Shown here piece after piece: positions 2,368 through 27,615 of a stretch of 64,000 nt of DNA. Position 1 is the stretch's first letter. Every line of letters begins with the position of its first letter. The stretch is from NCBI GenBank assembly GCA_018902385.1, contig JABSSW010000014.1, forward strand, positions 496,001 to 560,000, in the 5' to 3' direction. The notes below the pieces were generated by a model that saw only the letters and a list, made by a program, of their open reading frames with translations, did not search any database and was not told where the DNA came from. A program made the translations under genes and the position numbers. The DNA is from Physcia stellaris. Its lineage: Eukaryota; Ascomycota; Lecanoromycetes; Caliciales; Physciaceae.

Positions 2368-3378
2368 ATGGGTCGACGTCGTCGACCAAGCCCAGACCAG
2401 GACCCAGAGATCCCAGGCCCAGACCCAGCCACTCTAGCTAGATAGTAAGCCCTCGGTGTTCATCGGCTGCGACGAATATCTCTAACAGCACGTTCATCTT
2501 TCAGTGAAGGCATTGTAAAAAAGCACAGCGATGACATTCTTCGCGATGCCATCAATCGCTGGCGGAGCGTTTCGCCACGACCAAGGAATGCCATAGCTAC
2601 TCAAGCACAGCGGTCCCAAGGTCTCCAAGCGGTGCAGTCTGGAACTTCAACCCAAGCTTCTTTAGCGATAAGATCTGGTAGGCCTTCATATTCGTCACGC
2701 CAACCTTCTCCGGCGAGAAGACCCCCTTCTACCACGCAATCCCAAGCCTCCCCAGCGGCAACATATCGGCCTTCAAACGCGCAATCCCAAGCCTCCCGAG
2801 CGGCAAGACCTGACAGACCTTCAAATGCGCAATCCCAAGCCTCCCCAGCGGCAACATATCGGCCTTCAACCGCGCAACCCCAAGCCTCCCGAGCGGCAAG
2901 ACCTGACAGACCTTCAAATGCGCAATCCCAAGCCTCCCCAGCGGCAACATATCGGCCTTCAACCGCGCAACCCCAAGCCTCCCGAGCGGCAAGACCTGAC
3001 AGACCTTCAAATGCGCAATCCCAAGCCTCCCGAGCGGCAAAACCTGACAGACCTTCAAATGCGCAATCCCAAGCCTCCCCAGCGGCAACATACCGGCCTT
3101 CAACCGCGCAATCTCAAGCCTCCCGAGCGGCAAAACCTGACAGACCTTCAAGTGTACAACCCCGAGCCTCTCCAGCGGCAACATATCAGTCTTCAGTTAT
3201 AAAATCTCAAGCTGCCCCAAAGGCCAATAGTAAAAAAGCATGGAATGCACAACCTCAAGGCAACATTGTGCCGAACCCTCAGAAGCGTTCATATCTACAG
3301 CCCCAAGCATACCCGGTATCGAAAGGTCCAGAAAGCTCAGGGAAAAAGAATCCGGGTGGAAGGAGTTCAATATTTTAA
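2368..3378 (+). CDS. Low-complexity repeat protein built on a 93-bp minisatellite (two exons)
   Basis: The ATG at 2368 follows a normal upstream region. Exon 1 is 2368-2444, the intron 2445-2504 (GTAAGC...TTTCAG) and exon 2 2505-3378. The joined frame stays open for 316 residues. The N-terminus is basic and Pro-rich (MGRRRRPSPDQDPE), then a short ordered-looking piece (YEGIVKKHSDDILRDAINRW). Residues about 100-260 are tandem copies of a 31-residue unit made of two similar halves, of the type AQSQASPAATYRPS and AQPQASRAARPDRPSN. There is no signal peptide, membrane segment or known domain, and most of the protein should be disordered. Further coding-like frames lie just downstream, so the true C-terminus may be longer. 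Function unknown. Confidence 0.55.
2740..3185 (+). repeat. Coding minisatellite, 93-bp unit
   Basis: Tandem array of 93-bp units, each made of two related 45-48-bp halves. The unit is a multiple of three, so copy-number change keeps the frame. One unit shows a half-unit arrangement (two A-R type halves in succession), as expected after unequal exchange or slippage. Confidence 0.85.
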
Positions 3379-6260: not shown

Positions 6261-7665
6261 TTCAGAACAAGCCAATTGTTGTGTAGGAAACGTCGGATGA
6301 GATGGAGCAATCAATAGTTGTGCCTCAAGGCTACCTCACGTGAACGGGGGAAAAAGACCCGAAATTGTACGCCCAGCCATTTGAGATGCTTCTTCATTGC
6401 GATGCTATTGCTTACTAAGATGTCGACTTCAGCGTTTTGATTTTGCCATTGATGTTATGACGTTCTAATTGTTCAAAGACTTATCGTTATATACAATTGT
6501 CATTACACAATTTGAATTTGTCTTCAATAATAATAATTTAACGTGCGTTTTGACGAATTTTATCGAACATTAAAAACGATTTGAATTGTAATCAATTTTA
6601 CGAATACATTGTACATAACATTAATTTATTATTTTGCGTTACGATTGATTTATTAAAATTGTTTTAATTTTCAAAAATTTGCGTTGAAAATTTCGTTATA
6701 TCAATTGTTATTTTATTTCGTTTCGTGATCGATGAATTTTCTGAATTCTGAAAAATGAACGAAATAATTTAAAAACGATTGAAAGATTTGCGAAATGTTT
6801 TTTGTATATTTGATATTAAATTAATAATATCGATTTTTTTTTATTTCACGCAAACGTATCGATATCATTGACAAAATTTAATATTTTTGCAATTTTAATA
6901 ATCACAATTATAAATTTTTTGTAATAAAATACTTTGTGTAATTTTTGTTATAACAAAAACTCGAAAAACGTCAAAAAATTTTCTTTAAAAAATGACGTTG
7001 AAAAAATCGCGATTTTGAAAAAATTGAATTTTACATCAATTTTTGAATAAAAAATTTTGTGTCAAAATTGTTTGCAAAAATATTGAAAAATTTGAAATAT
7101 TCAATATTTTCAATGAAAATTTTTCGCAATTAAAAAACAACGAATAACATACATTTAAAAAACTTTGTTACGACATTTATAACATTCAAATAATATTTTT
7201 CGTAATTTTTTATAAACAATACATTTGTCAATGATAAAAAATCGTAACAAAAAAAATGCGAAAAAATTTTCTGTTTAAAATGCTATGAAAATGAATTTTT
7301 TTTTGTTGTTTATTGAAAAATTTTCTTCGACGTTCGTGATAAAATTGTTACAAATATGTCGATCGTATTATTTGATTTTACAATGTTTATTTTAATCATG
7401 CGATAATTATAATATTTTTAACAAATTTCAATATTTTTTCGTAATAATTAAGTTTTTGTTCGTTATTTTCGTGTTTTTTGTGATGAAATTTTGAAATATT
7501 TTATAAATTTTAATATTATGATAATCGACATCATTTTCAATAAATTCACAAAATTGACGTTGTAACAATCATTCATGTACATTTTTAACAAATTGTAAAA
7601 AATCTTGAAATGTTAAAATGTGATTTGTTGTGCAACGACAACGAATATTAAAATTTTTATCGTTA

Positions 7666-7863
7666 TTATTGAAAAAATCATGAATGATTATCATTTTATT
7701 GCTTTGAATTTCGTTATTTTTGTAACATACATGCAGATGAAACACAAAAAATGTGCGAATGTCAAAACATTAATTTCAACAAAAACGCATTAATTTTGTT
7801 TTCGTCAAATTATATCAATTGAATTTTGATTGCAACACATTTGCGAAAACTGTATTTTCAACA
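7666..7863 (+). repeat. 198-bp direct repeat, copy 1
   Basis: Matches 11042-11239 without gaps, with eight mismatches (about 96% identity), all C/T or G/A transitions. The copies lie 3376 bp apart in the same orientation. They might be the ends of an old element or two independent insertions. I see no matching target duplication around the outer edges. Confidence 0.85.
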
Positions 7864-8594
7864 TTTTTTCACAGCAATCGTTTGTGTTTTTTGTTTTGTA
7901 TTTTAACGAGTTCAGTTTGAAATTTTCGTGCAAATTTTTTCAACGATGTGATTTTTTTAGCGATTTAATTTTTTCAACGATGTATTGTTTGAAATTTTCG
8001 AACAAATTTTTTCAACGTGATATATTCTGAATCATGCATCGATGTGAAAATTGCAAAAACGAACGAATCGAAATTCGATGATTTATTGATTTCAAATATG
8101 ACGTAAAATCGATTGATAAAACGTGCGATCGAACAATTGATCGATTATTTGAAAAAATGCGTCGTTCTGAATGTGCATTTTCATGAAATGAAACATCGAT
8201 ACGAAATTCGATATCTAAAATTGAATAAACGTTACATCATGAAACAAATATCAATTGTTTGAATTTTGCGATGACGAACGAAAATACAAATCATATCATG
8301 ATTTGATAACATCATTGTGAATTTCAAAATTTTCAAATATTTCTTGCGACATCAATGATTTGATATTTATAGAATTTGACTGTAAAAATTTCATAAAATA
8401 TGTCAAATAATCGAAAAATCGATAAAAAAAACAATGCATCGAATGCGCGACATGCATTGCGAACATACATCGATGCAAAAAGTACAAAATCGAGCTTTTT
8501 TGATTTGATTAAGTTTTGTCAAAAAATCAAATCGATTAGTATGCGAAAAAATCAGATATTTTCAATTTTTTTGATCGAGTTTTTGCTTTGCAAA

Positions 8595-8840
8595 ATCGAA
8601 TATGTAATGATTGCATAATACGTTTTTTCGAAACAATATTATGTGATTTCAAATCGTATTTGTACAATACGTTTTTTCGAAATTGTATTGTTTGATTTCA
8701 TCGAATATGTGATGACTTCATAATACGTTTTCTCGAAACGATATTATCTGATTCGTTTTTTTTCTTCTAACAACTGTTCGTACAATACGTCAAATACGTT
8801 TTTTCGAAACTGTATTGTCAAAACTGTATTTATTTTTTCT
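8595..8840. repeat. Tandem array of imperfect dyad units
   Basis: The core AATACGTTTTTTCGAAA recurs at about 8618, 8666, 8722 and 8794. Each is followed by a partly complementary arm (AATATT or TGTATTG), making small imperfect palindromes. Copies 1 and 3 share a longer unit, so the higher-order period is about 105 bp. Confidence 0.7.
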
Positions 8841-10237
8841 TTTTCGTATTTATCGAGCGACTGAAATCTCAAAAAATAATAAAAAATAAAAACGATTAAT
8901 CAGTCGTGTTAAATCAAGACGAAATCACAAAAATAAATTTCTGTCATAATGAAATAAAACAAACAAAGCATACAAACTTTTGAATTTTTTCAAATCGAAA
9001 TAAAACGAAAAAAACGAAACATCGAATTCATCAAAACAACAATAACAACAACAATTTTTAGTTTTTTCAAATCGATCAACGATTAATAAAAAAAACGAAC
9101 GAACAAACAAACAAACAACATGTTAATTTTTCAAAGTAATGATTTTTTCGAAAAAATCAATACTTTTTCAAAATAGAACGAAAAAAAGCGAAATTTCAAT
9201 AACGTTGTTTCATGAATATTTCATTGTTTTCAATTTTTGAAACAATTCGCATAATTCAATCAACAAATCAATAAATGACGAAACGTTTTTGACAATGTTT
9301 GCAAACAAAAAAAAAACGCGAAAATGTCGAGAAAAAATGCGCATCGAAAAAAAAAAAATCGAAAAATTCGCGAAAATAATTTGCGAATCGAATGTTTCAT
9401 CGAGACGTGTGTTGTTGAAAATGTTTCGAATTTGATCGATTTGAAAACAAATAAAATCGTCGCATTAAAATATAACGTAATGCGATTTTGTATGAAATCA
9501 AATTTGCAATTGTTTTTGAAATTGCAAATGTCATTTCGATATGCAAAACGTTTGCAATTGTTTGATATTCGTAAATTTTTTTTGTTTCGAATTTGTCATC
9601 AAGATTTCATGTCAAATCTAATTCTGAAATGAAAAATTTTTGACATTTGACGATGTCAAATTTTTAACTCGATTAACACGTGATGATTCGACATTAAATT
9701 TACGATATTATCAATGTATCGATCATATTATCGAACAGACGTGTTTTTATAATAAATTATAATGTTGACGTCGAGTTACATCGATTGAAAATCTTGAATC
9801 TGTTGAAAAAAAAAAATTTACGAATGTCAAATAATTGCAAACGTTTTGCATTCGAAAACAAAATCGCGCGAAAATGACGAACGCATTTGATATCGTTGCA
9901 AATCAAATGAATTCGATTTTTCAACGAATATGCGAAACAAATCGTTCACGATCAAATAAAATCTCGATGATGTAAAAATTCGAAACGAAATAGACGAACA
10001 AACAATGTTTGCATTTTTCAAGAATTTGCACATCGATTTGAATGTCGCAATCGGAAAACGAGAAAATTTCGATGCAATGATTGATCGTGAAACGATTTCT
10101 GTTCAGAATATCGATTTTCTTGATGTTGCAATCGACGAAATAAATGATATATTCTTTGAACGTTCGCGTACAATTTCTGATTCAAACATCGAAAAAGATA
10201 TGAGTTTCGATGAAGTGAACGATGAAAAAATTATCGA

Positions 10238-10513
10238 TTAAAATGACGAAACAGAAAGAATAAAAAATTTCGATTCGAAAACAGATGAAACAACAAATTG
10301 CTGAACAGATTGTTTCGATTTTTTCGCATGTCGAGTACGAATATGCTCGTGAAACTTGATGTTGTTATCGAATTTAATCGAATGTTTGCAACGTTTGCAC
10401 GTATATTTTTTTGCTCGTTTCTTGATCAAACGAATTTCTTTTTGTTGTTTCAACAAATTTTTCGTTTTTTGTTTGATTTTGCTTTTTATTTGCAATTCGT
10501 GCTTTCGCATCAA
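10238..10513 (-). pseudogene. Fossil coding fragment with C2H2 zinc-finger signature
   Basis: The minus-strand frame contains YTCKRCKHSIKF followed by FHEHIRTRHAKKSK: Cys-x2-Cys, then His-x4-His after an aromatic residue, preceded by a Lys-rich helix. This finger type with a basic tail is seen in fungal mobile-element-associated proteins. It lies between the two 198-bp direct repeats and inside a patch that keeps more CpT/ApG than its surroundings. I read it as a relic of an old element. Family assignment is tentative. Confidence 0.4.
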
Positions 10514-11041
10514 ATAATTTTCTTGTGATTTTTTTGCTTGAATGAATCAATTGTATCGCGAAACATTAATAAAATTTGAATTCGTGTGCTCGTGATATAG
10601 AATTCGAAAATTTTGCGTTTTCGAATCATTTGCGTCGAGACAGATGCAAAGAAAAAATGATCAAGAAAAAATAACGAATGCAAATTCGAAAATGAAAAAT
10701 GCGAAACTCGTAAAGAAAATACGAATCGTCATTTTGACTGAATGATAAATAAATTTCGCGTAAAGTTCGTAAAATAATCGTAAAAAATTTCGAGAAATAA
10801 ATGTTATTGCTGAAATAACTGAAAGTGTACTGAATGTATTGCTCGTTTGTATCAAGATATGAATATTGTTCGATTGCAACTGAATCGATTTCGAATCTGA
10901 CAAGATTGAATGTTTCGAAAATTGATTATTGCTGAAATATTGCAAAATTTGTTGTATTGTTCGACAATTAGATATTACGTGCGCTCATGCTGTAATTGAT
11001 TTTGATAATATAACGAAAATTGTTAATTCGATTTTCATAAT

Positions 11042-11239
11042 TTATTGAAAAAATCATGAATGATTATCATTTTATTGTTTTGAATTTCGTTATTCTTGTA
11101 ACATACATGCAGATGAAACACAAAAAATGTACGAATGTCAAAACATTAATTTCAACAAAAACGTATTAATTTTGTTTTCGTCAAATTATATCAATTGAAT
11201 TCTGACTGCAACACATTTGCGAAGATTGTATTTTCAACA
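11042..11239 (+). repeat. 198-bp direct repeat, copy 2
   Basis: Partner of 7666-7863. Of the eight differences between the copies, six are in CpT/ApG context and two in CpA/TpG context. Each copy carries four of the presumed mutated states, so both copies were hit. Confidence 0.85.
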
Positions 11240-11736
11240 ATTATGAAAAAATTAAAAAAATTGAAACGAATTGCGCAAATGAACAATCAAATGTAATGAT
11301 TTAAATAATATTATAAAATGCATCAATAAATGCGTTAATTTGTAAAAACATAACAAAAACAAACAAAGAAATAATATAATAAATAGCAAAATTTCAAATT
11401 AACAATTCGAAATATTATCGATCAATTTCAACGTCACGTTCAAAAATCTAAAACAATAATCAAAAAACAAAATTCATCATCGTTAACGTTACGTTCATTA
11501 TCAAAAAAAACACGAAAAAAACAATTTCACAAACAACAATTCAATTTTTTCAATTTTTTTCAGAATTGAGTCTTTTTTTTTCGTTATTGACAGTTTTCGT
11601 TTATACGTGATTCATGATGCAAATCAAACGATCGTCGTCAATTTCAAATCGACATCGCGTGTGCGCATTCGATTTCGTTTAATAATTCACGTTCGAACGA
11701 ATTTGATTTCGCGAACGATTTTTTTCGTTCGCTGTT

Positions 11737-11830
11737 TGTGAATTGACATTCGAAACGATAATAAAATATTTTGAAAAAAATTTGTGAATTGAAATTCGAA
11801 ACGATAATACGTAAAATATTTTGAAAAAAC
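11737..11830. repeat. Two-copy tandem repeat, about 47 bp
   Basis: GTGAATTGACATTCGAAACG and GTGAATTGAAATTCGAAACG head two adjacent units, each ending in AAAATATTTTGAAAAAA. No coding role is visible. Confidence 0.65.
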
Positions 11831-14800
11831 AAAATGAAAAATCAATCGTTTATCGAGACGTCGCGATCGTTGTTTTGAACAAAAAACGAAAACGAACAAA
11901 TTTCGTTCACACAAATTGAAATTGATTTTCACGTTTTCGTTTCAAAACGTTTTTTCGCGATAATTTTTGAAAATGAATGAAACGATTCGATGATTTTTTC
12001 AATTCATGCGACGTAAATCAAATGATAACATTCAATTTCGAAAATGAATCGATGAATGAATGACGAAATCAATCGCGATGTGTGTTGTTGTGTTGTTGTG
12101 AATTTTTTTTTGCGTTCGAATTTAGAAACGTCGAAAATTTTTAAACGAATTTTTTTTTTTTGTAATTTTTTGTTTTAGATTTCGTATCGTTCAACAAATT
12201 TTCGTATACAACGTATTAAACAACGATCAACGCATTTTTCAATTTCATTTTTTTGAAAATGTCAAAAACGTTTTGAATGTAATTTTCGCGATTGATGAAC
12301 GTTTTCGCGAAAAATTCGAAAAATGATCGAAATTTGATTTTTGACAATCTTTGTATGTTTTGAAAAATTAATGATATGCGCAATCAATTTTCAAATATTT
12401 ATATAATGTGAAATTTCAAACGTGATTTTGAAAAAAAAATTTTGAATGTCAACGTTTTTGCATTGTGATTATGATAACGTCGACGTCGTTCAACAAATTT
12501 TTATATTCATTATAATTTTGTTGATTATGTACGAAATCATATTTGAATCGCTGATGCGATCAAAATTTCGAAATTTCAATAAATTTGAAAAAAAAATTAA
12601 ATGTGTTTGAAATATTCGATGATTACACGATTTTTCAAATTTGATTCATATGATGTTGTTTAATTCAAATTTCAAAAATAAATCATGTGAAACAATATTC
12701 ATCGTCACGTCGATTTGTTGTAAAAAATTCGAAATTTTCAATTAATTTTGTCAACAATGTACGATTAAACACGTAAATCGATTATATCAACAAAATTTTG
12801 AATTTTCATTAGATTTTGTGTTGATGAAATTAATGATTTCGAAACGATTTTTTTTTAATCACAATTTATGAATGTCGAAAAATCAAATTGAAATGCGAAT
12901 TTTACATGCACATGCACACGATTTGAAATCAATTTTTCATTGTTATTTAAATATTACGTTTGATAATGTCACATTTTCGAAATCAAAATATTTCAATTGT
13001 TTTTTTAGTTTTTTGTATTTTTTTTTTTTTTTTTTTTGAACAAAACGACACGTTTTTTTTTTGCGTGAAATAGTCGAAAACGTTAACAAAATTTTCATTA
13101 TATTCGTTTTTAACACGATCGATATTTTTGACATTGATTTTTTTTTGTACGTTGCGATTTTTTTTGTGATGTCGATTTGATTCATAAATTTTGTTTTTCG
13201 TGTTTTGAAATCAAGATTTTGATGATGAATTCAAAAATTTTCGTTGAAATTATATCGATTTCGTAATTGCACGATTTGTTGCATTTGATCAATCAACAAT
13301 GAACAAAACAAACGTTTATATGATTTATTTTTCAAATACGATATTGTTTTTTCATAATTTTTCAAATTTGCGATTGTTGTTTTTTTTCAAACAATTTGTT
13401 TCAATATTTCAAAAAAACGATCACGTTTTTGACGAAAATCACGATTACGACGAAATTATTTCATTCGTCGAACAATCGATTGAGATTTTCCGAATACGTT
13501 TTGACGAAAAATGTCGATATATCGAATTGAACATATTGAATCGCTTTATGAAATATCGTGAACAACAACGATTTTTTCGCGTTCGCATTTTTTTTGTTTT
13601 TTTTTTCGAAAAATGTTTGTATTGTTTTGTTTCAATCGATTTCGTTTGAATGATGTGATTTGTGAATATATTATTTGTTTATACATGTCGTTTCGCGCGT
13701 TTGTAACGAATTTTCGTGCAATTTGTTTCAAAACGTTTACGATCGAAACATTTGCATAAATGTGATAATGATAAATAAAATAAATATCGATGTTCGATTT
13801 CGAAATCGATAAAATTATGATTTTTCGCATCAATGAAATTGTCGAAATCATTTGATTTGTAAACAACGAAAAAATATCGAAAATCGAATTCGCAAATAAC
13901 GAAAAATTCGAACAATACACATCGCGATCATCGATAACAAATTCAAATTCAATATTAACGAAAACGTCGAATTGTTGCAATTTGTATGTAAATAAATATT
14001 GATCGATCAATCAAAAAAAAAAATGTATCGAATCAAATCGCGAGACGTTCGTTCATTTTTTTTTTTATAAAATTGTAAAGTATGTGAATTCAATTTTTCA
14101 TTTTGATGATTTGATTTGAATTGCGCAAATTTCGTTCAAATTTGCAATCAATTTTTTTTTTTCGATAAAATCGCAAATTTTGAAATTCGCGATGTCGTTT
14201 GTTTGCGAACGTTTTTTTTGAACATGATGAATACGATTGACGAATTCGAATATCGATATAAACGTAAAAAAATTTGATGAAATCAAATGAACGATATGTA
14301 AATAACAAAGTGCAAAATCAACGACACGAAACGAAAATTTTCGCGTTACAAACATTCAATGTTTTTTTTTGACACATTATTCAATTTTTTGTGACATTTA
14401 TATTTAGAATTCGTATAATCGTTTGTTTTGTTTTTGACGTCGTTTTTATTATCGTACGAATAATGTTACAAAATAACAAAATGTTTAATTAACGTTTCAT
14501 CGACGAACAAATTGTTGAAATTGATCAAATCAAAAATATTTCGTTTTTTTTTCAAACGTGTTGCGTTGAGTTCATTCGTTCGTGAAACATTGTTTACATA
14601 CATATTTTGACAAATTTTTTCAAAATTCAAACAACAAATCATTATTTTTGATCGCAATTTTTTTGATTTTTCAGAAATTTCGTCATTTTTCAATACAGTA
14701 CAAATTTCATTTGTGCGTTTATTTTTTGTTCGCGTCAAATGCATTTCGTCAAAAATCAACGCGTCGTCGTTCGATTTTGTGTTTTTTGAAAATTACAAAT

Positions 14801-15806
14801 TGATTTACGACAAAAAACGATTGTTCAATTCAATTCATCGTTTTTTAATCAAAAATTCAATATGAAATCGATTATTTTCGTTCAATTGCGAATCATCATG
14901 AAAAAAATTACAAAAAATTCGATCATTGCACAAAAAACAAAATTCGATTTGATCGAATCAATCGAAAAAATGAAAATCGAAATAGTCGAAAAAAACGAAA
15001 ACGAAAAAAAAAAAATGAAAAAAAAAAAATGAAAAACAAAACAACGAATCAAAACATCAATTTTCAACGTTCAAAAAAAAAACACATGTGTTCAGAAAAA
15101 TGTTACAAAAAATTTTTGAAAAAGTTTACGTTTTTTTTACATTGAAAAATTACAAAAAATTTGTAATTGTTGTTCATTAAATTAACGTTACAATTAAAAA
15201 TCATATAGTCAATGAAAGAAATTCGAAACGTTCGTCAAAAACAATTTTTTTTCGAATTATTTGAAATGTTTCAAACAATTCGACGAAAAAACGTTCGAAT
15301 TGATCATGATTTGAATATACGTCGTTTGTGATAATTCGAACATGATTTTTATCGATACAAACAACGTTGAAAAAAAACTTTTCGATTTGATTTTACAAAA
15401 TCGAACATACAATCACGCGTTGAAAATACGTTTCGCGTGCAATTGACATTATAAATATCGACAAAAAAAAATATCGATACGTTTCGTCACGAAAAAAATG
15501 ATTTTTGAAATGACAATTCGTCGTTGTTTTTAAACGTGTTCATTTACATGAAAAATTTACAAAAAAAATAAAAAATATCGTCGTTGAATTGTTAAAATAT
15601 TTTTTTTGATAATGTATGTTATTTACAAATTGCAATATCGAATCGACGAAATCGTTATCAACGCGCGCGTTATAAACGAAAAAAATTTACAAAAATTATG
15701 AAAATACAATCGACAACATCGTTCGATCGATAATTTACAACGATTCGATACAAATCATAATGAAAATCGATTTTGAATCGAAATCAAACAACGAATTATG
15801 TTGTAA

Positions 15807-16010
15807 TTGATTTACGTCATGATTTTTTTGTGTTTATTGCGAATTGACGAAATTTTGCGCATTGAATTTCATCATATTGAAATCGTAAACGAGAATTTCA
15901 ATCATTTTTGCATCAAATTGATGTTGAAATTTCGAAAAACTCATCAAAATAAAAATAAACAAAATATTGATAACGAACTCGTTAACAATACAAAATTAAC
16001 AATGTTTTAA
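15807..16010 (+). pseudogene. Possible tyrosine-recombinase (Crypton-type) fragment
   Basis: A 67-codon frame contains FLCLLRIDEILRIEFHHIEI and then KLMLKFRKTHQ. This resembles the box-I region of tyrosine recombinases (a conserved Arg in an LR..E.L.L...D/HI context, followed by a Lys-Thr pair). The rest of the catalytic domain (His-x-x-Arg, Tyr) is not recognisable downstream. If correct it is a decayed DNA transposon of Crypton type. The match is short and the assignment is weak. Confidence 0.3.
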
Positions 16011-17890
16011 ACATCAAATCTTTTTATTTTTATGACAATAAAAACGAATTTTGATTGAATATGTTTCATTTATTCGCAAAATGAATTGTTTTGTTCGATT
16101 TTGAATTTAGCGACAAAATTTTTCGACGATTTGATGTTATGAATCGCGTTATCACAATCAATGTTCTTTTTATAATATTGAATTTGATATTTCAAATTGA
16201 ATGAATTTCGTTAACGTTTTTATTACAAACATTTCAAATTTTCTTGAATAATTTTCGCAATAATTTTGTTGATATCGATGTGAATTCGAATTTTTTCGAA
16301 ACGCATTCTTTTCGCAAAAACGATGTTCAATATTTTTTGATTCAAAAACGTTGAAATATTCGCAAATTATGTCATTAAAACGATTGAAATATGAAATATG
16401 ACAATGTGACAATTGTTAAATACATTATCAATTGAAATGATAAATTTATCAAAATGCGAAAATTTTTTTTTAATTTTGACGATTAAAAAGATACACGTTA
16501 CAACGCATACGACAAAAAATGCGATTGCGCATAATTGTTGTTCATTTTTGTCGATATTTGAAATCAATTATCGATTTTTACGAAAATTTTTTCGTAATAA
16601 TTTTTTCGAATCATATTGAAAAAAATTTCAAAAACAAAAATTTTGAATTAATAAACAAAATTCAAAATCGTCACGAAAATCGAATGACAATATCGAACAA
16701 AAACAAATTTCGAAATGTCAAACAATGATTTGTCGACGAATGCAAATTTGATCAACGATAATTCGTTTCATTGACATATGTATATATTTTTTAAAACATC
16801 AATTTTTCGTTAATCGTTCGATGTCTTTTCATGATCGTTTTGATTCAAAAATTTTCAAAATAAATCGTACGTTATTGCATATTAAATATCGCAATTCGAT
16901 TGAAACAATAAATATTGTGAAAAATGCTGTTTTGTCGTTGATATTGTCAATCGAAAAATGTTTAATCAATATTGAAATTCAAACGATTCATTGATTGAAA
17001 TCGTTTTCGTATAATATACGTTGTTGAAAATGTATTTCAATTAATTGTCGAAATTTTTATTATTCTTTCAACATATATATTCGTACGATAGTTTTAATTT
17101 ATTTGTAACAAACTGAAATGATCAGTCGAATTTAAAATGAAAATTTTTTAACGTTCAAAAAAATTGAAATTGAAAACGTGTTTACGAAAATTGTCGATTA
17201 AATCATTTTTTATTTTTCACATCATTTGAACATCGTTTTTCATTATGAATTATATTATTGCATAGCAAACAACTCGTTCAATGATTACGATTTGAACAAT
17301 ATAAAATTATTGCTTTAATGCAATACACAGCAACAAAATCTGTTTTGTTCAGAATTTTGAATCAGAATTTTGACATTTGTTTGATATATGCATTTACGTT
17401 TAAAACAAAAACGAAAATCGTTGTTTTATTGATTTTTATTTTAATTTTTACTATTTTTTTTTTACAATGACATGAAGTATGTCAATGCAATGTTTAATGA
17501 ATATTTTTTAATTTGCTAATATGTATTGATGCAAAACGAATTTGTTTTTGAATGTTCAACGTTATGTGTTTTAAAATTATAATCATTTTCGCGAACGCAT
17601 GATCGATTCATCAATGCAAAATTGAACGAAAAAAACAATTATCACGATAATCGAAAAGAAACAAAATCAAAAATTGAACGTGACGAACACAAAACGACTA
17701 TAAATAGTTGATTATTGAATATAAATGATGCGAAAACTGAAATATTTTAAAACAAAACGTGAAAAATGAACTGAAACAAAACGTGAAAAATTGATTGTAA
17801 ATATATTTTGATTGATGAAAATGTGAAAATATTTGATAATCGTCGCATAATGTTTATATATGCAAATAAAAAATCAATATTTTAATGAAA

Positions 17891-17972
17891 CGAATCTGAC
17901 TGAATGATCTAACGATTAAAACTGTAAATAAACATTTTTCATTCAGAAAATCGCGAGTTCGAATCGTATGAT
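17891..17972 (+). other. tRNA-like relic (A- and B-box-like words)
   Basis: TGACTGAATGATCTAACG resembles a class II tRNA D-arm/A-box in which GG has become GA. GAGTTCGAATC about 50 bp further on matches the T-arm/B-box consensus. Acceptor pairing is poor, so it is not a functional tRNA. It may be a mutated tRNA gene or the head of a tRNA-derived SINE. Confidence 0.3.
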
Positions 17973-18378
17973 GAACAAAATGCGTAAAAAATGATGAACA
18001 ATTCGCTGAATTTCATAATTAAAAACGCGCTTTCTGATGCGAATGAAAATTTTCAAAATAATTGCATTAATAATTTGAAATTATTGCTAACATGTGAAAT
18101 ATAACAGACAATAAACATTATTTTTTTGTTGTTGTAACAACGTCGAAAATTGATATTGAACGCAAAAAAAAAAAAATGATTGAAACGTTAACGAAACAAC
18201 GACGATTGCACAAAAAAATGACAAAACAGAATCGTGACGAGATGATGTATCAATGAAAAAAAAAAAAAAAGTTGAAAACGTCGATCGAAAAAATAAAAAC
18301 GATGTAATGATATTGACGAAACGAATGATAAAAAAAACGAAAACGAAAAAAAAAAATGAAAAAAACGAAAAAAAAAAA

Positions 18379-18590
18379 ACGAATCGAACGAATGTTTCGA
18401 CAAATTTCTTGATTTGAATTAAAAAAAAAAAAAAAACGCAACAGATCGTAAAATTGCTAATGATTAAAAAAAAAAAATTGCAAAAAACGAAAAAAAACGA
18501 ATCGAACAAATGTTTCGACAAATTTCTTGATTTGAATTGTAAAAAAAAAAAAACGCAACAAATCGTAAAATTGTTAATGATTAAAAAAAA
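18379..18590. repeat. Tandem duplication, period about 119 bp
   Basis: Two copies beginning ACGAATCGAAC, with shared blocks ATGTTTCGACAAATTTCTTG and CGTAAAATTG. Apart from A-run length and a short AT change, the differences I see are three G/A or C/T transitions. Confidence 0.75.
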
Positions 18591-20171
18591 TCAACTTCAT
18601 GTATTGATATGAAAAATGATTTATTTCGTCGTTATCGAAAACATGATCGCACGATCACAATTGAACGTGTATAAAATTTACGACGTGATGAAAATTCAAA
18701 AACGCGTTGAATCGTGTCAAAAATACGTTTTTGAAATTCAGAATTTCGAATTACAATTCATCGTCATGATGAAAAAAACATTGCAACAATGTAATGTAAT
18801 GATTACAAATTGAAAAAAAAATAAATAAAAACGAAAAAGATTGCGAAAACGAATAATAAATTAAACAAGTTTGCGAAATCAAATTTTGTCGATTTCGCAA
18901 TATCAACATCACGAAATCATGATCATGAATTTATATGAAATGAAAACATCAAAACAATTTCATCACGATTAATGCACAATCGATATGACATATAGCATTT
19001 ATTTTTGAAAAAATTTATATTAATGTTTTCGCACGAATTGAAAAATTGAACATCGAAATTTAAAAAACAAAATTACATTAAATTAACATGAATAGAAATC
19101 AAACATAACAAAATCATTTTAACATCATTGTTTTTATGAATACAACATGCAAAAAACATCGATTTGACAACGATAAATATATTTTTTTTCATAAATTGTT
19201 ATAATGATTACACGTTGTCAATTTTCTGAACTCGAAACGATGTTTTTTCAACAATATTATTTTCATGTGCTATTGTTTTTTTTGTAATTTATAATGTAAA
19301 TTGTGTTTTGACTTTACATTATCGTGATTTTTAAAAATAAATGTTTTCGATCAAGAAAAACAATGAAAATATGAACATTTTTTCGATGTTTAAATTATTT
19401 TTTAATATATTATACTCGTACGTTGACGAGAAATGATAATTAAAATTAAATAATCGTTGATTTTTTTGTTTGATATTATGCAATTACGATGATATTGTTC
19501 ATTTCATTGACAACGATATTTTTGATAAATTGTTGTTGTTTCAACATGTGAATATTTTCGCGTCAACACATATTTATCATTAACGTCGTTTGTAAAATCA
19601 TTTTTGTTTACATGAATTTCAATTTTTTTTTTTTTTTTTTGTTGTTTAAATATCACGATCATCATTATCATGTTTCGTAACGCGAATCAATTGATTATTT
19701 GTAAATGTATTATTGAATCGAAAATATGTATAATTTCTGATATATATTCAAACGTATTCGATGAAATTGTTATCAACGTCAATATTTTCGTCGTAAATGA
19801 AAATGCGAAAAAATGCGTACACGTTGATTGATGTATGCGAAATTTCGTCAACGTTTATCAAAAAACGAATTTTTTCAATTTATTGAAATTTACGACGATT
19901 ATACAATTTTTTTGACAAACGTCAATCGTTTCGTTTCGTTTCAAATCATTCATTCGAAACAATTGAAAATTTTGATTATTCAAATAAATTTCGAATTTTA
20001 ATATTTATAACATTGTTGACGCAATTTCAAATCATCGATCGAAATATTCGTTCGATTTGTATTCATTGCGTCGTTACGAACAATCGTGTTTTTCGCGTTT
20101 GTCGTCAAATCAAAACGCAATTTGAAACATGCGACGAATATTAATGAAAACACAAAACGTCGAAATGTTCG

Positions 20172-20951
20172 TTGAATATGTTTTTTTTTTTTTCGTTTCA
20201 TTCGAAACGAATGAAACGATTGTTAATTTATGATGTAAATTCGATACGCGTAAAATTTACGATCGCAAAAATGATGTTTTCGATTTTTTTCAAAATTAAA
20301 AATTTTTTTGTGCATGACAAAAACACGCGAATTCGTATCAATGTTGTGAAAACAACATTGTCGAATTTCGAAACGTGTTTTTCGCAACGACAATCAAATC
20401 GTCAAAAATTGTTTATCAATCAATTTACGACAAATCGCGAACGATTGCAAAAAATCGATTTCAATGTCGACAAAAATGAATTATTATTTTTGTTTCAAAA
20501 TGAAAACGAATTCATGAATATAAACACAAAAATTCATTTTGAACACGACGACAATTTCGACGATTTCGAATTTGACGATTTCGAAATCGAACGATTCGAT
20601 TTTATCGAATTTCAAATCGTTATTTTCGCATCAATTAAAAAAACAGAAATTTCGAATTTTCGTTTTACAAAAATATTTACAATTTGAATTTCAAAATCGC
20701 GTCGCTTTCGCGTCGCAAAAAAAATTGTAAATATGTTTTTTAAAAAAATTTGAAAAAAATTCATTTTTTTGATTTATAAAAAAAAATATCAAACGATGTT
20801 GAATGAAAACGAAAAAAAAAATATTGAAAATTGTGTTGACGAAAAAAATCAAACAAAAAAAAATATATCAAACGTTGACGAAAACATCGTTTTCGAATAT
20901 TCAAATAAAAAATGTCGAATCAAACGACGAAAACGAAAAATAATGAAATGA
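20172..20951 (+). other. Coding-like open frames inside the AT-rich block
   Basis: A 171-residue frame at 20172-20687 and a Lys/Glu/Asn-rich 60-residue frame at 20769-20951 lie on the same strand. The first carries an acidic stretch with NFDDFEFDDFEIERFDF. No domain is recognised. The length is more than expected by chance in AT-rich DNA, although loss of TAG stops helps. They could be relics of one old coding region. Confidence 0.25.
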
Positions 20952-23900
20952 AATTGTAATTTGAAATAAAATTGAACACAATTAAATTTTTGTTTCGAGA
21001 ATAATTATGTTGTGTGTCGATTTCATTGCATTTTTCGTTATATACGAAATTGCAAAAAAATTTTTTTGCATTGTTGTTTGATTATGAATTTTTTTGAATT
21101 TTTTTGAAACAATCATGTTTTTTTCGCGATTGTAAAACATCATTTTGTAATTTATATCAAATTTTTTCAACAATCAAACGATGCGAATAAAACGCGAAAT
21201 TTGAAAAAAATAAAATCGAACGTGTTACGACGCATAAAAAAAAATTTGACGTCGAATGTTGAATATTTAAACATTATTTCAATAATCATGTAATGAGAAA
21301 TTTTGTTATGAAAAACGATTTTATTGCAAACATCGTTATACACAATATTGTAAAAAAATTGACATTATTCGCATCAAAAAAAATTTGCATTATATTTATT
21401 TTTCATTTATAAATTTCGTTGATTCGTTTTTTTTTTATTTTGTTGTTTTTTTACATCATTCGTACGAAAATGTTTTTTAATAAATGCGATTGATTAATAA
21501 ACAATCTTTTTGTATTTAATAAATTTGATGTTGTCAAACAATTATTTTTTATAAATTGTGATTTGATTTGATTTTGTTGATGTTAAAATGTTTTGATAAT
21601 ATTTAATTTTTGTCTTGAATAAAAAAAAATGAATTTTTTTTTATTATTTTGATATTTGCAATTTGAAATGATACGAAAACAACAATTTATAAATATTTAA
21701 AACGAAATGTTGATAATTATAACAATTGATTAATAAATATGATGAAACAAATGTTTTCATTTTTTATATTGTTTTTTCATTTCATATGTTGATTCATGAT
21801 CATCAATTCGTGAAATTGTTATTGCGAAATCGATAAAATTTAATTTCGCATTCTCGTTTAATTTTTCGTTTTTTTTTGTTTATTTTTTACATGACGTTTG
21901 ATTTTTCATTTTCACGACGATGAATTGTAATACGAAATTTTGAATTTTAAAAATGTGTTTTTGACACGATTCAACGCGTTTTTATAATTTTTATTACGTC
22001 GTAAATTTCACGCACGTCAAAAATTAAAAAAAAATTTTATCGCGATAAAATGAATTCGTTCAACAAAACGAAATCAATGATATCGAATTTCATTATCGAC
22101 GACGTAACTAATAATTAAATCAAATTGTTTTTTCAATGAATTTCTTTTTTGCAATTTTTTTTTTATCATTTTTTTCGTTCGTGCGTTCGTTTCGTTTTTA
22201 TTTTGTCACGATTTTTTTGTTTTTTTTTTTTCAATTTCGTTTAGACGATTACAATTCGAACGATCATTTCGTTTTTATTTTGTCACGATTTTTTTTTTTT
22301 CAATTTCGTTTTTTTTTTTTTTTTTTCTTTTTCAATTTCGCGCAAACGATTACAATTCAAACGATTATTTCATTTTTATTCAATCATGATTTTTTTTTTT
22401 TTTCACGATATTATCACATCGTTTTTATTCTGTCATGATTTTTCTTTTTTGTCATTTTCAATCGTTATTTTATCGCGTTCATCGTTTTTCAATCAAATCA
22501 ATCGACAATTTCTTTTTAATTTCGTATTTTGCGCAAAATATTCACGAATTTTCAACATCGTCATTACAACAACAAAAAAATGATGTTTGTTGTTTGTTAT
22601 ATTTCACATATTAACATTGATTTCAAATTAGTCAATTAAATGTCGAAACGCGAATTCGATAATCAGACATTGTTATAACGTTTTCATTGAATTCAAAATT
22701 GTTATTGTTCGATTTTCTCAATTGTAACATCAGATGTTCATCACACGAATCGAATTCGAACATTTTTTAAATGAAAATTTATCATTTACAATTTAAATCG
22801 CAATTTTAATCACTAAATTAACAAGTCGATTTCATTTCGTTAAATCATTGATTATTTATTTGCATATATAAACACGATACGTCATTCAAAAAATTTTACA
22901 TGTTTTTTTTTTTCAACTTTTTTTTCATTTTTTTTTTCGAAATTTTTGCATTTGTGTTAGTTATCGTTTTACGAAAATCAACATTCAACATTGAACATAT
23001 TCATTAATTTCTATTTAGTCGTTCTATTTTATCGTCACATTTTCGCAAAAATAATGTTTATTTTTTAAATTTTTTTGAATTTGTTTATCGAAATCATTTG
23101 AAATTTGTTCATCATATAATATCAAAAATTCTATTATAATTGTCATGCATGATTTGATTTTTGAAAAATTGTTTTTCGAATTGATCGAATTATAAATGAA
23201 CAAAATGATTGTTTCAAACGAAAAAAAAATGAAATGAAATACATTTGTTTTGTATTGTTAATATTAAAATTCTAAATTAACATATTTGAATTTAACATTG
23301 AGATGTAAACATTATATAATACAACAAACATATTTTCAATAATAATTTTTGCATTCAATATTAAATTTTTTGTATTTTACAAAACAGTATATTCATTTTC
23401 ATACAAAATATTCATATCACAAATAATAATATCAAAATTCAAATTATCAATGACGAAATCATTGTAATCAATATTTTAATTCATATTTCAAATATTTGAA
23501 TTTTCGATTTTATTTTTTTTATTCAAGATTTCGATAATCACATTTATGCAATTTTAATTTTTTCAATCTTTTCATTTTTTTTTGAAAAAAAACAATTTGA
23601 ATCACATGCGAAAATCATGTGCATCGTTTTCAATGACAATTTTTTGAAATGTAAAAATGTTTGATGTCGTATTTTGTTGAATTTTCAAAAAATAATGACG
23701 TATTGTTGATAACGTTATGCGAATATGAAACGTATAATGTTTGATTTTCGAAATAACGAATTTCAACGAAAAAGAAAATTCGTTTTCAAACATCAAATAA
23801 CACGAAAAGCAAATATTATGATGTGAATTTGTTTCACGCATTTTGCATTTTCATGTGAAATCAATGATGATTCATGAAATTCGCATACATGTATGATTTT

Positions 23901-24122
23901 AATCGTACGTTTTAACATTTTCAAAAAATAATAACATCGAACGTCGAAAAAATAATTGTATTGATAATTTTAATTGTTGAAAAAAATATTTTTCGATTGA
24001 AATTTATTTATGAATACATGTTATAATGTTATCAACGTCGACGTGATTGTTTTTGAACATTTTGTTTTTTATTAAATTTTTAGTCAAACAATCATATTTT
24101 TCAATTTTTTGAAAAAATTGAA

Positions 24123-24985
24123 TTATTTTATGTTCAATTTCGAATCATAATTTTCGTCATTCGCGTTTTCATAATCATCATTGTTGAACAAATGATCGAA
24201 ATCGTTTTCGTTTTCGAAAACATTGTCAAAATTATCGAAATTGTCGTTGAACATTTTTATTGATTTTTCAATCATCATTTTATTGCGTGTGACATTTCGA
24301 TTTCGATCATTGCAATTTCGATTATCGCGATTTCGATCATCGCGATTTCGATCACGTTTTAATGTATTTTGAATTTCAATCGATTGCGTCATTTTGACAA
24401 TTTTCTTTCGTGTAATTTTGATTTCGATCAATTTCGTTTTTTTGTTTCGAATTGTCATATTTGAAAATTTCGATTCATGATCAGAAAAATTTCGATCGAT
24501 AAATTTTGATTTTCGTTTTTTGATTCGAATTGTTGTGTCGTTTTTGTTTTGTGATTTTCGATGTTTGTTTTTCAATTCGATAATTGCAAATTTTTTGTTT
24601 GTCATTTCAATAACGTCGACGTCGTCAATATCGAAAATATAATTAATATTTATGACATTGTCAATATCATCAACGTGATCAGAATTAAAAACATTGTTTT
24701 CGTCGTGAACAAAATTGAAAACATTATCATTATCGAAAACACGAACAAAATTCGAAAAAACATCGTCATTCGAATGATTAACAATTGAATTTTCGTCATC
24801 ATTGTTAATATCGAAAATATCGTTATCATTGACAACAAAATCGTCATTTCGATCAACATCGACGATATTATTATTTTCGAAAACACGATTAAAATTGAAA
24901 ACATCGTTTTCATCGTCAATCGATAAAACGAAAAAAACGAAACGTGATTGAAATCGATTGCGAAAAAATCGATTGCGATTATTTC
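24123..24985 (-). other. Long stop-free frame (about 287 codons) inside the AT-rich block
   Basis: The minus strand is open from a TGA near 24985 to the stop at 24123. The first ATG is at 24605, giving 160 residues; the upstream half is open but lacks an ATG. The upstream part is Asp/Asn/Val/Phe-rich (for example DENDVFNFNRVFENNN), the middle is Lys/Arg-rich, then comes an Arg-Asn-Asp repeat (RNRDDRNRDNRN) and an acidic tail. The DNA is partly degenerate simple repeat, which can keep a frame open without selection. No domain is recognised. It is either a real low-complexity gene, a coding fossil, or a by-product of repeat structure. Confidence 0.3.
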
Positions 24986-27016
24986 ATAACACGTATTTTA
25001 CGTCAAAAAAACGTTTTTTTTTGTCAAAAATAATCGAATTCGAATCGACGTGCGTGATCAATGAATTTCAAAACGCAATAATATCAAATTTCGATGTAAT
25101 GAAAAAGAATTTAAACTTTAACAATCTTCAATGAAAATAAAACAATTGAAACGAAAACAACGATGCATTTTCAAATCGATTTTTCTCGAATAATTTCAAG
25201 AAGTTTCGTATATTGTAAACACACGAAATATTTGTTGTGATATTGTGAATGTCAATACACGATTCAAAAAAATGTGTATTCGATTTTTTTTTGATTTTAA
25301 TGAATCGTCTGTATTGTTTTTCGATTTTATGCAAAACGTGAAATGTAATCAAAATAAACAAATCGCGATAAAATTGTCGATTAAATTTCGTGATTGTTGA
25401 TTTCGTTCGAATTTGTTCAACGATTTCGAAATAATTTTTTTATTGTTTAAAAAATAAAGTTTTCAAACGTTTAATTACAAATTTCATATTGTCAATGAAA
25501 TATTTGAACATTTATTTCAAAATACGATGATCGTTTTTAATTCGAAAAAATTTATGAACGTTGAAATGCAATATGTCGTTAATGTTATAATTGCAAAAAC
25601 AACGTCGTCATGAAATATCAAATTAAATTTTGTGCAAATACAAAATCTCGTCGCGATGAAAACGTTTGTATTTATTTTTCAAATTTCTTTAAATTAAATT
25701 GTAATTTTTACGAATGAAAACGTGAACAATTTCGAATCAATGTTTCATGAATTTTTGTCATTTTTGTTCGATTTTGTCATCGTTGAAAAAATGTTTGCAA
25801 TGTTTTCGAATTTTTTTGTTCATATGATAAATAAAAAGAAAAATTTTTGTTGTTAAATATCGAAATTCGAAAATTTCGAACAATATTCAATTCGAAATGA
25901 AAACGATTACAAAAAAAAATTGAAAATTTAATCGTCGATACAGTTGATCGATATCAAACATCATTTATATCAAATTCGTTTTATTTTTCGTATTAACAAA
26001 AATCAAATTTCAATAAAAATTAATGTTTAATGAAATTTGTTTCAAAAAAACAAACATCGACAATTCGTATTGTTTGATTTTGCAAATACTATTTAACACG
26101 AAAATTTCGAAATTTTTGAATAAAAAATCGACGACATATTTGTTGACAAAAAAAATTTATTCACACGATCGTGATGTTTTACATCGCGACGATTTCAAAA
26201 TCAATTGATAAAATCGAAAACGAAAACATCGTGCAAAATTTTCATAAAAATGTCAATGTTCAATTTTTGCGTTTTGAATTTTTTTTTCGCATTGTAAATG
26301 TTTTGAACAATGAAAAAATGATTGAAATAATTCGTGATTAAATTATTCAAAATTTCGATCGAAATCATGTTTATATTTGTTAAATTGAAAATTGAATTTG
26401 TCGATCAAAAAATTGATTTTTTTCGTTTGTAATTGCGATTTTTTTCAAAATTTCGTTTGTCATTTAATGTTTGTGATGTACACGAAAATTTTTCGTTGAA
26501 ACGAACGAGTGATTATGAAATTTCGTTTTAATCGTGAATTTTCATTGCGTTTCACGAACGTTTTTGTAACATGTGATTTTTTATAAACAATTTTCATCGC
26601 ATTCAAACGTAATTTTAAAACGTTTTTTAATTATTGAATCATTTTTCATAATTGAATGATTTTTTGATCGTTTGATTTTGATGTTGTAATCATGATTTTC
26701 GACGTAAATTATGAAAACGTCATGTTTTGTTTCAAAAATGTCGTGTTATACAACAAATTCAATTGATTCGTTCGAGTGAAATGTCTCGACGATTGTAAAA
26801 AATGCGAAAAATTGATTGTTCGTCATTTTGATGTGATCAGATTGTTATGAACAAAAACAACGAATTGTCAACGATTAATTAATCGAAATTTGTAAAAACG
26901 AATTCAATCGTACGTCGTTAATAATTTTACAATAACAAAATCGAATTGTTGAAATTTCGAACAACGATGATAAAAAAAAAATGATAATAATATTTTGCGT
27001 TTGTTGTTTGTTTTTG

Positions 27017-27420
27017 TTTGAAATAATGTTTTCAAAAAAAATCGTATGTCGTTGATTTCAAAATTTAAAAACGATGATTGAATCGATTTGATTTCAAACA
27101 TTTTTCATCGTACGTCAAAGATGATTTTTGAACGAAAACAAAAAAACGTTATATGCGAAATTGATTGTAATGCAATAAAATCGAAAATGTTTGTTACAAA
27201 AAATGTTTTCGTTTGATGTATATTTTTTTTGAAAATAATATTTTCAAATATAATCGTATCGCGTTGATTTCAAAATCGATAAATTGTGATCGAATCGATT
27301 TGATTTCAAACATTTTGCATCGTACGTCAATTATATAATGTTGACGAAATCAACAAAACATTAATTGTTAAATTAATAATATTGCGATAAAAACGAAAAT
27401 GTTCGTTACGAAAAATGAAA
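27017..27420. repeat. Diverged tandem pair near the right edge of the AT-rich block, about 200-bp units
   Basis: Units at about 27017-27215 and 27226-27420 share GTTGATTTCAAAAT, GAATCGATTTGATTTCAAAC and CATCGTACGTCAA in order. Divergence is higher than in the 198-bp pair. Confidence 0.65.
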
Positions 27421-27615
27421 CGACGACATCATCACAACATGATTTGTTTACGCGATTTCATTTTCGCGATTACACGTGTCAAAATTAATCAATAAAAGTC
27501 GAACTTCTATTGACTATACTATAGCGTCACGCTAAAAACGCCACGCGCGATTTGCATTTTCAGACTTCGAAACTGTCAATCTGCAAATAAAATTCTGCGA
27601 GACCGGGTCTCTTAA

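Follow-up and report, generated by a model that had tools for sequence, protein, structure and literature searches.

Transposon DNA of the lichen fungus Physcia stellaris is very likely hypermutated by a repeat-induced point mutation-type process that takes CpC first

Repeat-induced point mutation (RIP) in Neurospora crassa (RID/DIM-2) changes C to T on both strands, acts mostly on repeats and leaves AT-rich blocks beside intact genes. Its order of target preference is CpA>CpT>CpG>CpC (PMC5496416). We describe here an AT-rich block of 21,094 bp in Physcia stellaris (Table 1), located within a 64,000-nucleotide stretch of contig JABSSW010000014.1 (the window, hereafter), which shares all these features of N. 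crassa RIP but differs in the order of targets. In Physcia this order is CpC>CpT>>CpA>CpG, and the target least used by N. crassa comes first. Physcia also has two genes that may be counterparts of RID and DIM-2.

Other described systems have preferences of their own. In Trichoderma reesei, which like Physcia belongs to Pezizomycotina, CpA and CpG are used about equally and apparently before CpT, which is followed by CpC (PMC5496416), so that CpA/CpG are ahead there, unlike in Physcia. RIP-like hypermutation of CpG or TpCpG, termed CpG-biased, was reported for the basidiomycetes Microbotryum and Rhizoctonia; in the single-nucleotide polymorphism (SNP) table of Rhizoctonia AG8 the most closely spaced context is CpC (214 bp), with CpG at 370 bp (PMC2621366, PMC4014442). 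These cases resemble Physcia in C-to-T mutation of a target other than CpA, but they concern SNPs and are CpG-biased, whereas in Physcia repeats mutation has saturated CpC, and no context is better protected than CpG. High CpT-to-TpT change is described for N. crassa Tad1, some S. nodorum repeats, Magnaporthe and RIP-capable test species (PMC2621366, PMC7882544), CpC is depleted in S. nodorum repeats as well (PMC2621366), and CpC-to-TpT double changes occur in Monilinia (PMC8959702). Short S. nodorum rDNA repeats show CpT change without CpA change, and the authors doubt that this is RIP (PMC2621366, PMC7882544). With the exception of this rDNA, CpT-rich cases elsewhere accompany CpA change, while in Physcia most CpA escapes and CpC is in the lead. 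Cladonia rangiformis, a lecanoromycete, has a strongly bimodal GC distribution, RID/DIM-2 homologues and a mutated peak at about 16% GC (PMC12542154), which is below most of the Physcia block (20–27% GC per kb). CpC-led RIP was not found in the literature searched, in which subscription journals were thinly covered. The P. stellaris genome was obtained from an ascospore-derived culture by Nanopore and Illumina sequencing (46.57 Mb, 184 scaffolds), and the main text of that paper contains neither "repeat-induced" nor "AT-rich" (PMC7513301). The assembly analysed in this work comprises 43.97 Mb in 147 contigs.

The original prediction, made from the letters of the window, was that the block lacks CpC and CpT but keeps CpA and CpG, that both strands are affected (GpG and ApG being equally rare), and that the flanking gene regions use all four contexts. 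Its hand counts proved exact, both at 20221-20520 (42 C: 22 CpG, 20 CpA, 0 CpC, 0 CpT) and at 12241-12480 (12 CpG, 9 CpA, 1 CpT, 0 CpC), and the whole-block counts give a stronger effect than the one it had put forward. The block contains a single CC (expected 307, observed/expected ratio (O/E) 0.003) and a single GG (expected 345, O/E 0.003), at positions 10053 and 13490. CpC is thus erased more completely than CpT: 146 CT (O/E 0.15) and 135 AG (O/E 0.13) remain. CA (1231, O/E 1.30), TG (1398, O/E 1.37) and CG (1165, O/E 3.58) exceed expectation, and the O/E of TA is 0.435. Chance was rejected as the cause, as 200 composition-preserving shuffles gave a mean of 653 and never fewer than 604 CC+GG against the two observed. 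In the flanks (41,740 bp) the O/E values are near 1 (CC 0.96, CT 1.02, CA 1.10, CG 0.91). Neither of the two outcomes that would have refuted the prediction, a normal composition-corrected level of CpC and CpT in the block or a depletion in the flanks, was found. On the plus strand, TG and CG occur in the block at the density of the flanks (66 vs 66 and 55 vs 54 per kb) and CA is 17% lower (58 vs 71 per kb), which limits the wholesale loss to CpC and CpT. When every CpY (Y, pyrimidine) was mutated in silico on both strands of flank DNA 28001-49095, the GC fraction fell to 0.244; that of the real block is 0.249.

Dinucleotide ratios in sliding windows, a check proposed with the original prediction, were computed over the window and over a sample of twenty 10-kb stretches (200 kb) from elsewhere in the genome, four of which were chosen non-blind (three methyltransferase loci and one stretch beside the window). 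Divided into 500-bp windows, the sample contains 18.5 kb below 33% GC and 176.5 kb above 42%; the 5 kb between were excluded from the averages. CpC and CpT were again depleted in AT-rich DNA. Counted on both strands, CC falls from 115 per kb in GC-normal to 1.0 per kb in AT-rich DNA and CT from 133 to 33, with CA (138 vs 130) and CG (108 vs 115) at similar densities in both. At most five CC/GG per 500 bp were present in 38 of the 39 sampled windows of GC below 36%.

A comparison of mutated with unmutated copies of the same repeat gives the direction of the change. A 1-kb piece of the block used as a query had 18 matches in the genome, the window included, of which 16 were 87–95% identical to it and one, C20:452488-453483 (locus L047), was unmutated with 50% GC. 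With 4 kb of L047 as the reference, C in the window copy (L033) had been changed to T at 383 of 384 CpC, 429 of 465 CpT, 73 of 574 CpA and 5 of 413 CpG sites. Against these 890 C-to-T changes stand two transversions at 1836 C/G sites and no reversal (T-to-C or A-to-G) at 2127 A/T sites, so the change was fast relative to background mutation. Both this and the near-complete conversion of CpC argue against a slow decay in which CpC and CpT in repeats are methylated, for example by a DIM-2-like enzyme, and 5-methylcytosine deaminates over the long term with the help of poor repair. Methylated repeats would indeed yield repeat-restricted C-to-T changes in the context of the enzyme, and a presumably DIM-2-like gene is present, but we regard this explanation as improbable.

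The same context order was found in all 17 mutated loci compared, the window copy included, which are not all independent copies (L044 and L050 overlap; L045/L048 and L046/L049 each lie close together on one contig). Over these loci the mutated fraction ranges from 0.96 to 0.997 for CpC and from 0.05 to 0.24 for CpA, the most mutated copies losing CpA too (0.24 in L042). Twelve loci taken together have 9663 substitutions, of which 9119 are C-to-T or G-to-A. Hazards relative to CpA, calculated in ten copies, are 16–65 for CpC (rough lower bounds because of saturation and background divergence), 13–30 for CpT and 0.1–0.6 for CpG.

The 5' neighbour of C hardly affects mutation in the transposase-family loci, the pooled mutated fractions being 0.97–0.99 for NCC, 0.88–0.91 for NCT, 0.09–0.17 for NCA and 0.02–0.06 for NCG. 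APOBEC-, AID- and DddA-like deaminases recognise their sites mostly by the base that precedes C, while C5-cytosine methyltransferases choose theirs by the base that follows it and are almost indifferent to the preceding one. A cytidine deaminase attacking repeats in place of a methyltransferase would have the same chemical outcome, C to T on both strands, but here the 3' base decides; 5'-context deaminases were rejected on these counts, and a deaminase of any of the above types is very unlikely. The same tabulation bears on ultraviolet (UV) damage, which has been proposed as the source of the C-to-T bias of lichen fungi (PMC8809443): lichens are exposed, and CpC and CpT are dipyrimidines. However, the C of TpC, also a dipyrimidine, is largely spared before a purine (TCA 0.17, TCG 0.03), C between a purine and a pyrimidine is lost (ACC 0.99, GCC 0.98), and the dinucleotide ratios are normal in the gene flanks. 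UV was rejected on the TCA/TCG and ACC/GCC counts and has next to no chance of being the cause.

The second family studied is a long terminal repeat (LTR)-like element. Besides the mutated element of the block it has related copies elsewhere, one of which is unmutated (L024 5808-8912): it is about 3.1 kb long, has direct repeats of about 190 bp (94% identical) and is flanked by fully mutated sequence. Relative to this copy, L024 4984-5665 has lost 68 of 74 CpC, 58 of 83 CpT, 2 of 82 CpA and 5 of 92 CpG. In another L024 segment, in four segments of the window and in L029, changes at CpC and CpT likewise far exceed those at CpA and CpG. Two weak L022 matches to the element lack the pattern, and where the element's own ends match each other no mutation is seen. 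Two repeat families therefore support the idea of a C-to-T process directed at C followed by a pyrimidine, and in both the proposed tabulation of 3' neighbours puts CpC and CpT in the lead. The claimed survival of CpA stands insofar as CpA is largely spared, with the refinement that it is lost slowly, CpC being hit first, CpT second and CpG almost not at all.

Partly mutated DNA also bears on the order. L044 1-1500 retains 5 CC/GG and 89 CT/AG per kb. L029 9501-10000 has 10 CC and 128 CT per kb, compared with about 115 and about 133 in normal DNA, and may have been caught early in the mutation. If a normal starting density of CpT is assumed, these two loci suggest that CpC is mutated before CpT.

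We therefore consider, with high confidence, that the block is repeated transposon DNA hypermutated by RIP in the order CpC>CpT>>CpA>CpG through an enzyme of the C5-cytosine-methyltransferase type, and a RIP-type process with an inverted target is very likely. The copy comparisons show, in two element families, C-to-T change on both strands of repeated DNA that depends on a pyrimidine 3' of the C, with next to no other change in the window copy. The genome defence of Physcia would take CpC first and CpT next; mutation of CpA is about 16–65 times slower than that of CpC, and CpG is almost exempt. We infer a mutator of the C5-cytosine-methyltransferase type that is active in the sexual cycle. 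As expected for RIP, C-to-T changes on both strands are accompanied by little else, repeated DNA is hit, and single-copy genes are spared; an exception is the stretch at the left end of the block, mutated with no second copy found.

The usual RIP indices, by which RIP gives a high TpA/ApT and a low (CpA+TpG)/(ApC+GpT), behave differently. With the thresholds printed in PMC7882544 they flag none of 40 overlapping windows of the block and none of 67 gene windows. The mean composite RIP index is −0.95 for the block and −0.53 for the genes; these indices measure CpA and TpA and hence rate the block as less RIP-affected than the neighbouring genes. The ratio (CpC+GpG)/(TpC+GpA), in comparison, is 0.001 in the block and 0.78 in the genes. 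Since the usual indices flag nothing in a saturated 21-kb block, published claims that other fungi lack RIP may be mistaken.

Several observations weigh against RIP of this kind. The preference for CpA, usual though not universal for RIP, is absent. The order of CpA and CpG is inconsistent in the LTR-like family, and one AT-rich window (L022 3501) is a lone exception in the sample, with 23 CC/GG per 500 bp. Strand clustering is inconsistent too: same-strand clustering reached p<=0.025 in three of ten copies and opposite-strand clustering in one of ten; clustering is the pattern that processive RIP might give. The leftmost stretch of the block is mutated although no second copy of 6301-7660 was found in a genome match search that skips common words; it could be a spill-over into flanking DNA or, alternatively, a repeat whose partners were lost, diverged or missed. 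Finally, the rewritten loop of the candidate enzyme discussed below may be unrelated to the mutation, since the RID-like gene has ordinary motifs.

The effect on proteins differs from that of CpA-directed mutation: codons for Gly, Pro and Trp are erased, and most Gln and His codons survive. The unmutated transposase frame has 48 Gly, 32 Pro and 12 Trp, and that of the window copy has none of the three, while Gln goes from 18 to 17 and His from 30 to 26; the 15 stops that arose agree with the 14.4 predicted by simulation at the observed rates. Among 8000 candidate proteins scored, the only transposase hits were the host's own protein and two relatives with the source label ENA, P0240 and P0241 (564 and 570 aa), which contain no Gly and no Pro, as predicted. 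In P0240 and P0241, respectively, 25 and 29 of 38 Gly have become Asp and 24 and 19 of 26 Pro have become Ser; Gln is kept at 12 of 12 positions and aligned Trp at 7 of 7 in each, as if both had been called with TGA read as Trp. Compared over their full length with the fetched copies, they match at best at 73% and 76%, and they must therefore come from copies that were not fetched, probably from other samples, though not necessarily from another species. It is these two proteins that would point to a spread beyond this assembly, and protein databases apparently contain relics of this type of mutation, entered as proteins without glycine.

The two proteins bear as well on a possible sequencing artefact, in which nanopore base-calling reads modified CpC and CpT in repeats as T. 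The published assembly does combine Nanopore and Illumina reads (PMC7513301), and repeats polish badly. On the other hand, the loss is near total and not noisy, the 16 matches at 87–95% identity may be taken as distinct enough for short reads, and the Gly/Pro-free relatives bear another source label. The chance of an artefact seems remote.

A family search of the genome gave four matches in three DNA_methylase genes, on contigs C3, C5 and C6. The C3 gene is presumably DIM-2-like, and its product (L014 3972-7325, minus strand) has DUF7893 (Pfam) at residues 137-225. We take the C5 gene to be RID-like from its motifs, in a comparison that included no N. crassa RID; its product is 100% identical to P0121 of P. 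stellaris over residues 190-935. The C6 gene is of the DmtA type, DmtA being the name given by the source for relatives in Histoplasma and Aspergillus; its DNA_methylase domain contains SPPCQ, QNRRR and QIGNAVPP, with two introns placed by eye. The C5 and C6 genes look intact. In a tree of 44 hand-picked rows (eight more, in which motif I was unclear, were dropped), C5 lies among lecanoromycete proteins, paired with one from Heterodermia. A second Heterodermia protein and unnamed ones share a clade with C6, which has a long stem and is placed near the Eurotiomycete DmtA group. The loop after the catalytic PCQ reads FE[DE][KI]Q in all seven rows of the C6 clade and in none of the 36 other rows in which a loop was found: 29 of these fit [DN][DE]xxN, and seven are variants by eye (one further row had no match). 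C5 has the ordinary loop. Both C5 and C6 are candidates for the mutator; C6 with its rewritten loop is no more than that, and is slightly favoured over C5.

More broadly, and tentatively, lichen fungi around Physcia may have evolved a RIP-type mutator that reads a 3' pyrimidine, with CpC as the prime target, perhaps a DmtA-type paralogue with a rewritten loop acting beside or instead of RID and overlooked because of the usual indices; we consider this quite possible, if somewhat short of probable. The Physcia counts themselves indicate that RIP-type mutation can have its target inverted from CpA-first to CpC-first, which makes the basis of sequence choice by RIP testable through the loops of RID and DmtA.

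The block consists mostly of transposon DNA (Table 1). Its left edge is marked by the final CC/GG at 6446, and the number of CT/AG in 50 bp declines from 6 at 6401 to 0 at 6551, a taper of about 150 bp. An open frame of 832 codons, with its end at 6335, lies roughly 110 bp away. At the right edge, where the first CC/GG are at 27541 and 27603, mutation ends about 90 bp inside the end of the 16-kb repeat. One copy of this repeat (L047) is unmutated over the approximately 4 kb read, and matches of 67–81% identity along C20:449882-466209 suggest that it is near full length. PF10551 (Pfam) was found in the transposase of this unmutated copy, hence the name MULE transposase; the four frames of the mutated block that stay open for 150 aa or more gave no Pfam match.

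Table 1. Coordinates of features in the window
Feature	Position	Strand	Basis
AT-rich block, CpC/GpG erased, CpT/ApG mostly erased	6447..27540		dinucleotide counts
Fully mutated stretch, no second copy found	6447..7660		self match only for 6301-7660
Mutated LTR-like element	7666..11242		201-bp direct repeats 7666-7866 and 11042-11242, 95.5% identical
Mutated unit of ~16 kb with MULE transposase	11562..27594		colinear full/partial copies on other contigs
Mutated MULE transposase frame	24127..26404	-	763 codons, 15 stops
Terminal ~90 bp of repeat retaining CpT and one CpC	27500..27594		match ends, context counts
Second block of the same kind, start	63116..64000		window has no CC/GG starting beyond 63114

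The 16-kb unit also contains an inverted repeat (18665-19127 and 21578-22017), the two arms of which, in the mutated copy, are about 69% alike; sequence related to it is present at many other places. A tandem array of direct repeats (period, about 93 bp) is located at 2651-3195 of the window, in DNA of normal GC content.

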